A stretch of DNA of 34,240 bases, taken from positions 1 through 34,240 of IMG/VR virus record IMGVR_UViG_3300005534_000114. The stretch is one strand, 5' to 3'. Position 1 is the stretch's first letter. Each line of letters begins with the position of its first letter. Below the pieces are notes generated by a model. It was not told the origin of the DNA. It made no database searches and saw nothing but the letters and a program-made list of their open reading frames with translations. A program made the translations under genes and the position numbers. Of this stretch, positions 32,955 through 33,641 are shown piece by piece. Source of the stretch: a virus.

Positions 32955-33032
32955 TGGTGCATCCAACGGGACTCGAACCCGTGACGAACAGCGTTTTAGA
33001 GACGCCCGCTCTGCCAACTGAGCTATGGATAC
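32955..33032 (-). tRNA. tRNA with CUA anticodon (amber suppressor candidate)
   Basis: Minus strand 33032 to 32955, 78 nt. Acceptor GTATCCA/TGGATGC, D-stem GCTC/GAGC, anticodon stem GGCGT/ACGCT, loop CTCTAAA with U33 and CTA at 34-36, T-arm ACGGG/CCCGT and encoded CCA. CUA would read UAG. The variable loop is 7 bases, longer than usual, so an indel in an Arg(TCT) tRNA is an alternative; but in that reading the base before the anticodon would be C, not T. Confidence 0.7.
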
Positions 33033-33039
33033 ATAAACA

Positions 33040-33161
33040 GGATGGAATTTTATCTACGCGCGTCTACCAATTCCGCCAACCCGACTCATTGTGCCGGGTG
33101 AGGGACTTGAACCCCCAATGTACGTCCTCTAAATGGAATGATTAAATTGCTGTTACCATCC
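33040..33161 (-). tRNA. Permuted tRNA-Leu-like element (unit C)
   Basis: On the minus strand the T-arm half comes first: ATTTA, a 13-base variable region, T-stem GGGGG/CCCTC, acceptor strand ACCCGGC (33099-33093); then a 7-base linker; then acceptor strand GTCGGGT (33085-33079), a Leu-type D-arm GCG/CGC and TAGAT. The two acceptor strands pair at all seven positions (one G-U). TAGAT pairs with ATTTA, AAATT with AATTT, and outermost CCATCC (33040-33045) with GGATGG (33156-33161). So the tRNA is circularly permuted with its ends in the anticodon region. No CCA is encoded after the acceptor strand. A simple joined loop lacks U33, so function as a decoding tRNA is uncertain. Confidence 0.68.
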
Positions 33162-33167
33162 TAAAAC

Positions 33168-33175
33168 TATTTATA
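33168..33175 (-). promoter_or_regulatory. Late promoter inside the tRNA cluster
   Basis: Perfect TATAAATA on the minus strand, just upstream of permuted unit C and of the CUA tRNA. Would give late expression of these RNAs. Confidence 0.62.
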
Positions 33176-33183
33176 TCAAAATT

Positions 33184-33304
33184 TGGTGCCATTGTGGGGA
33201 ATCGAACCCGTATCCACCCTCTTAACGTACTCGCTAGCAGTACAGAAATTCGAGCGGAGCAACTATCTCCTTCAGGGGAGTCGTGCGCCTTACACTACAA
33301 CGAC
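33184..33304 (-). tRNA. 121-nt tRNA-Ser-like element with expanded interior
   Basis: The ends pair fully as an acceptor stem (GTCGTTG with CAATGGC) and ACCA follows, but the length is 121 nt. Inside are a GTG/CAC hairpin, a CTCC/GGAG hairpin, then CTCG and CGAG flanking a CTGCTAG heptamer (GCT, Ser) with about 10 extra bases, and a T-loop TTCGATT whose stem is broken by an apparent insertion of ATAC. Many features match a tRNA-Ser(GCT), but several arms are interrupted. It is either a decaying gene or an RNA needing unusual processing. Confidence 0.5.
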
Positions 33305-33344
33305 ATAAACTGGATACCGTATCGGTTCAGGCCGATAGGGATTG

Positions 33345-33435
33345 ACCGCTGTCCTACCACTAGACGAACTGCCCTGTTCTCCATCCCATAAAGGTTAGGC
33401 AGGCGCAGTACCGGGATCGAACCGGTGTATGCGGT
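33345..33435 (-). tRNA. Permuted tRNA-like element (unit B)
   Basis: Minus strand order: ACCGC (33435-33431), a 4-base variable loop, T-stem ACCGG/CCGGT with loop TTCGATC, acceptor strand ACTGCGC (33409-33403), a 28-base linker, acceptor strand GGGCAGT (33374-33368), TC, D-stem GTCT/GGAC with loop AGTGGTA, A, and GCGGT (33349-33345). GCGGT pairs perfectly with ACCGC as an anticodon stem; the acceptor strands pair at six of seven positions. Outside, TGGATAC (33466-33460) pairs with GTATCCA (33317-33311), and a TATCGG/CCGATA hairpin (33320-33337) sits between. No CCA encoded. Confidence 0.66.
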
Positions 33436-33472
33436 TTGGGCTGAGTAATGATGCTGTCAGTATCCAAAAATT

Positions 33473-33532
33473 GCCGGTGTCCTAGTCCATAGTAGACGAC
33501 CTTTCGGGTAGGAATCGAACCTACATCCCGGC
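33473..33532 (-). tRNA. Permuted tRNA-like core with tetraloop in place of the acceptor stem (unit A)
   Basis: Minus strand order: GCCGG (33532-33528), T-stem GTAGG/CCTAC with loop TTCGATT, then CC-GAAA-GG, TC, D-stem GTCT/GGAC with an 11-base loop, A, CCGGC (33477-33473). CCGGC and GCCGG pair perfectly where the anticodon stem would be. The acceptor stem is reduced to two pairs capped by GAAA, so this RNA could not be aminoacylated. It keeps a tRNA elbow only. Directly repeated GCATCATT flanks it on both sides. Confidence 0.55.
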
Positions 33533-33542
33533 GAAACTAAAT

Positions 33543-33633
33543 GATGCAACGACAATGCCATGTTCGAGGGGTGGTTTCACTTTCCCGATCCCATTCATGG
33601 CTTTACAGACCTCTAGGTCAGCGTGTGTGCATC
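33543..33633 (-). ncRNA. Three-helix RNA element, possible tRNA-Tyr remnant
   Basis: GATGCA (33633-33628) pairs with TGCATC (33548-33543) as a closing helix; inside are a GACC/GGTC hairpin and a GCCATG/CATGGC hairpin that continues through GGG/CCC and GTG/CAC. A CTGTAAA heptamer lies where a Tyr(GTA) anticodon loop would be if the element is a decayed tRNA. No CCA, and no standard T-arm. Could be a new structured RNA or a pseudogene. Confidence 0.4.
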
Positions 33634-33641
33634 AAAAACTT

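Follow-up and report, generated by a model that had tools for sequence, protein, structure and literature searches.

Within the tRNA array of a T4-like phage, several tRNA pieces stand in swapped order, and the question is whether these are permuted tRNA genes, RNAs of another kind, or pseudogenes. The window is the whole 34,240-nucleotide fragment that was analyzed. ARAGORN and Rfam identify five ordinary tRNAs in it, and the swapped-order pieces are flanked by the tRNA for His and the amber-suppressor tRNA (CUA). All window features described here are on the minus strand. The first-pass annotation had described three units, A, B and C, in which the T-arm half precedes the D-arm half, and this order is seen in all three. 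A scanner for permuted tRNAs, which looks for a T-arm, a pairing acceptor, a D-arm, and pairing outer ends, recovers units B and C, also detects the corresponding units of two relatives, and gives few other matches.

Unit C (33039..33162), the best preserved, was delimited by the scanner and by parsing the anticodon arm. It probably represents a circularly permuted tRNA gene in which a small intron-like element interrupts the anticodon stem, and on the sequence features set out below we give this reading a probability of roughly 0.7. The unit begins with the 3' part of the putative intron, comprising the outer-helix strand AGGATGG (33156..33162) and the conserved motif ACAGCAA (33147..33153). 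The second exon starts with positions 29-43, TCC-ATTTAGA-GGACG (33123..33137), which include the anticodon TTA (33130..33132), and continues with the T-arm GGGGGTTCAAGTCCCTC and the acceptor 3' strand ACCCGGC (33093..33116). The acceptor-closing loop ACAATGA (33086..33092) is followed by the acceptor 5' strand GTCGGGT and the D-arm (33060..33085). The putative intron 5' part, TAGATAAAATT (33046..33056), comes after the exon end CG|TA, and the outer-helix strand CCATCCT (33039..33045), which pairs with the first strand, completes the unit. Pairing of the acceptor strands had been reported for both B and C, and it is borne out (GTCGGGT/ACCCGGC at 7/7 positions in C, GGGCAGT/ACTGCGC at 6/7 in B).

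The split in unit C falls within the anticodon stem (27-28|29-31). In the best parse, CG (27-28) from the D half joins TCC (29-31) from the T half, followed by the loop ATTTAGA and by GGACG (39-43), which gives a stem with 5/5 pairs and a 7-nucleotide loop with U33 in all three genomes; the joint can be assigned only to within one T. Removal of the flanking element, which consists of the outer helix GGATGG/CCATCC and TAACAGCAA, thus leaves a perfect anticodon stem and U33. Simple joining had been thought to yield U33 in no unit. This is true of A and B in the window genome, but not of C, because the best parse puts the joint within the anticodon stem. Similarly, 5-base-pair outer helices had been interpreted as anticodon stems; the outer pairing of A and B exists, whereas the TAGAT/ATTTA pairing of C, although present, is probably not the anticodon stem. 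What that interpretation lacked is that the outer helix and TAACAGCAA belong to a conserved intron-like element.

The unit C loop is ATTTAGA (anticodon UUA) in the window, and ATTTGGC and TTTTGGC (UUG) in the relatives. An anticodon UUA would read UAA, which is the commonest stop codon of the phage (25 of 40 genes), and this counts against a spliced tRNA. No sign of stop-codon recoding was found within the window. Because both relatives additionally carry an ordinary tRNA-Gln (UUG), the UUA copy of the window may be drifting. The amber-suppressor tRNA (CUA; 32955-33032) is found in every relative looked at; just 2 of the 40 genes of the phage end in TAG.

The relatives were obtained with an SbcD protein search, which returned two large ones (L006 and L007, from separate metagenomes) with ~84% DNA identity to the window in neighboring genes, and one further contig. 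The latter is 99.98% identical to the window, and the permuted units are therefore no assembly slip. Queries with the 101-amino-acid neighbor protein or with the exact unit sequence found close relatives only. Unit C is ~98% identical in L006 and L007, compared with ~84% for neighboring genes. Alignment with both genomes confirms that the permuted tRNA-like genes are retained, and that paired positions in their acceptor, anticodon, and T stems have changed in a compensatory manner. The anticodon stem of unit B is ACCGC/GCGGT, GTCGC/GCGAC, and GCCGC/GCGGC across the three genomes, its acceptor pair 3-70 changes from G-C to A-T, and its T stem is altered on both sides. In unit A, which is found in L007 and is cleanly missing from L006, the T stem changes from GTAGG/CCTAC to GCAGG/CCTGC. 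This retention with compensatory changes indicates selection rather than decay.

Unit B (33311..33466) is Glu-like, is called by the scanner and by its compensatory changes, and has outer ends GCGGT/ACCGC that pair at 5/5 positions. It also has an outer helix, TGGATAC/GTATCCA, and the motif ACAGCAT (33451-33457), so that in both C (GGATGG/CCATCC) and B (GGATAC/GTATCC) a closing helix is followed by T(A/G)ACAGCA. Unit A (33473..33532) is a permuted tRNA-like core, T-arm then D-arm, with outer ends GCCGG/CCGGC. It lacks a 7-base-pair acceptor, its T-arm and D-arm being joined by the 2-base-pair CC-GAAA-GG, and neither the outer helix nor the motif is present. In the window genome, no decodable loop is restored in A or B. 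The three units are therefore less alike than they had seemed. A T-arm half that comes first together with a pairing acceptor is found in B and C, and in A without the full acceptor. Joined halves that form a complete anticodon arm are found for C, which has the full element, in three genomes, and for B, with U33, in L007 only. Unit B may be a diverged member, and unit A may be a reduced relic or a tRNA mimic.

A fourth tRNA-like RNA had been missed beside these three. This D-unit (33185..33304) has normal order, is ~120 nucleotides long, and has a hairpin where the anticodon arm would be. Pseudomonas phages Astolliot and Milchi show covariation in its acceptor, and the unit is cleanly missing from L006. 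At 33542-33634 is a structured element closed by TGATGCA/TGCATCA, with no recognizable tRNA and with a compensatory change in L006 (GACC/GGTC to GGCC/GGCC).

As judged from sequence, the same element is present in many other phage tRNA genes, in permuted or normal order. Searches based on the units found permuted RNAs in phages phiM12, which has three such units, and phiN3, Klebsiella phage KP13-16, and Xanthomonas phage XaC1, and normal-order tRNAs with a hairpin and similar motif in the anticodon loop in phages Aeh1, VH7D, and 4_4572. Several of these named isolates fall into the minority without a decodable loop after joining. Matches in Synechococcus phages ACG-2014i/h/j, BcepSaruman, and Efs 1-1-1 proved to be ordinary tandem tRNAs, and that in S-TIP37 a lone tRNA-Leu half adjoining an integrase. 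T4 rnaC and rnaD were also rejected; the 3' end of rnaC is tRNA-like, and the element is clear in neither. Ordinary tRNAs are absent from the deposited annotation of several Synechococcus ACG-2014 phages and BcepSaruman (L011, L014, L015, L012).

A pattern search of IMG/VR for ACAGCAA upstream of a T-arm found at least 120 stretches, versus 2 for a scrambled motif. The matches listed include 107 distinct ones, and 89 of these have a tRNA body (acceptor and D-arm), located downstream in 54 (permuted) and upstream in 35 (normal order). Excision produces a 5/5 Watson-Crick stem, a 7-nucleotide loop, U33, and R37 in 66 of these 89, whereas swapping exons among loci produced a mean of 19 and a maximum of 27 of 89 in 300 shuffles. 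The fully restored arms belong to 36 of the 54 permuted and to 30 normal-order genes, and all 66 restored anticodons are sense. The frequency of the motif among matches arises by selection, because the search was queried with a motif first noticed in the window; unlike that frequency, the restored anticodon arms do not arise by selection. The remaining 23 of the 89 listed give no decodable loop on excision, which counts against splicing. A search with a normal-order pattern yields 21 occurrences among viral contigs and 6 among bacterial assemblies, each of the latter on a Clostridia MAG contig, so the arrangement looks like a phage feature.

Among the matches listed, the outer helix has 4-10 base pairs in 64 of the 66 (55 distinct sequences) and ends 0-3 nucleotides before the motif. 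Junctions mostly follow position 27, 28, or 29, with CG|TA the commonest 5' junction, and the normal-order insert is 37-51 nucleotides long. Four nucleotides is the commonest acceptor-closing loop among these matches; some loops have just 2-4 nucleotides, UUCG and GAAA included, and this, like the variability of base 73, counts against a spliced tRNA. ARAGORN recognizes 63/63 excised forms and 1/63 genomic forms among the matches listed, a comparison biased to the excised forms because they were picked for good stems. The Rfam tRNA model alone spans several normal-order members as tRNAs of 114-118 nucleotides. In one contig (L104, 2572-3136), three such tRNA matches are clustered, and probably all carry the insert; in another (L142, 1555-1770), a permuted tRNA gene and a group I intron are separated by a few hundred bases.

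The best reading is that permuted and ordinary phage tRNA genes alike are split by a tiny intron-like element that appears to be neither of the bulge-helix-bulge (BHB) type nor represented in Rfam. Because its excision restores a normal anticodon arm, the element points to an undescribed phage route of tRNA building, by way of a spliced circular precursor. The precursor would start with the intron 3' part (an outer-helix strand, NACAGCAA, and 6-13 nucleotides) and the second exon (29-73), and would continue with the short acceptor loop, the first exon (1-28), and the intron 5' part (A/T-rich, then the other outer-helix strand). The outer helix may bring the precursor ends together, after which the element would be cut out and the exons joined. 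Permuted members probably pass through a circular form during maturation, as algal ones do. Their acceptor loop would then be opened by RNase P of the host and by 3' processing, and CCA addition and charging could follow. Excision might be self-catalyzed or performed by a phage or host nuclease and an RNA ligase. No EndA (PF01974) scores above cut-off in 18 carrier records. RNA ligase families are frequent, yet none is common to all carriers, and a phage RNA ligase was rejected as an obligatory partner on that ground. We see even odds that these elements form a previously unrecognized class of phage tRNA introns of very small size (~45 nucleotides, helix plus ACAGCAA), which are self-excising or depend on a recruited enzyme and which, in permuted form, yield circular tRNA precursors.

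Alternatively, the units might never be spliced, and instead function as tRNA mimics in two pieces held by the outer helix or as a three-way junction that retains the insert. Permuted tmRNA is a known two-piece RNA and thus a precedent, the outer helix and an anticodon mini-hairpin can both form in unspliced RNA, and capped acceptors with stable tetraloops occur. However, a mimic would not need a preserved U33, a purine at 37, and sense-only anticodons, and we regard this explanation as rather unlikely. It is scarcely probable, and already disfavored, that the units are pseudogenes arising from deletions within tandemly repeated tRNA genes, as the clustering of several tRNA genes in the window and the lack of a decodable loop in A and B could suggest. 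The permuted order and pairings are kept with compensatory changes in relatives, and the same architecture recurs in many other contigs. Intact tandem tRNAs in related phages, with pairings lost here, had been named as the mark of pseudogenes; the two relatives keep permuted units instead.

The units might also be Y RNAs that bind Ro60 and mimic tRNA. YrlA combines a 5'/3' closing stem with a tRNA-like domain of D, T, and acceptor arms (PMC8394870), a structure that the phage units share. The Rfam YrlA model matches a phiN3 unit (35.9 bits, E 9.9e-7), but this score is under the cut-off, and in the window the best RF02553 score is 11.4 bits versus a cut-off of 69. Both permuted units and Ro60 genes are found in Phosso and Trina, but Ro60/Rsr (PF05731) is absent from the window fragment and from the two large relatives, of 168 and 183 kb. 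The GGUUAUC/ACUUG site of Phosso is also missing from the window units, and a Y RNA would not explain why an anticodon arm is restored. Membership of the window units among Y RNAs was rejected on the score and the missing PF05731, and we regard this reading as very unlikely. In Sinorhizobium phage Phosso (L016, 1309-1953), two permuted units have a Ro-type stem (GGTTATC, ACACTTGCC), and Ro60 is encoded at another place in the genome; these units are likely phage Y RNAs. In Rhodococcus phage Trina (L029, 445-700), a permuted tRNA-like unit, annotated in part as a pseudo-tRNA, adjoins the Ro60 gene.

Genes split by the intron-like element and having a restored arm number at least 36 permuted and at least 30 normal-order, and nearly all are missed by ARAGORN in their genomic form. 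If they are spliced, then phages possess a route of tRNA splicing distinct from BHB, group I, and group II introns, and the tRNA genes of phages have been undercounted. No report of permuted or mini-intron phage tRNAs was found in the literature searched, mostly outside subscription journals. A 2014 review counted 34 permuted tRNA genes, which came solely from six algae and a single archaeon (PMC3978253). Like the phage units, the genes of algae and Thermofilum pendens place the 3' half first and have an acceptor-closing loop (Soma 2014, PMC3978253), which in one T. pendens gene is a single nucleotide; their transcripts are ligated to a circle and then probably processed by RNase P and tRNase Z (PMC3978253). 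In contrast, their junctions are BHB motifs, attributed to tRNA splicing endonuclease, whereas the phage helix lies 5-12 nucleotides from the 5' junction and ~13-23 from the 3' junction among the matches listed, a spacing that does not resemble a BHB. Group I introns in bacterial tRNA genes similarly interrupt the anticodon arm, but their Rfam model has 253 positions versus 37-51 nucleotides for the phage insert among matches listed, and the insert matches no Rfam intron model, RF00028 included. YrlA (RF02553) carries a T-arm, a capped acceptor, and a D-arm in the same order on a closing stem, but has a Ro60-binding stem where the phage element has ACAGCAA. Permuted group II introns likewise are a natural permutation of an intron and form RNA circles in vitro, but they are large ribozymes and not tRNA genes (PMC8637638).
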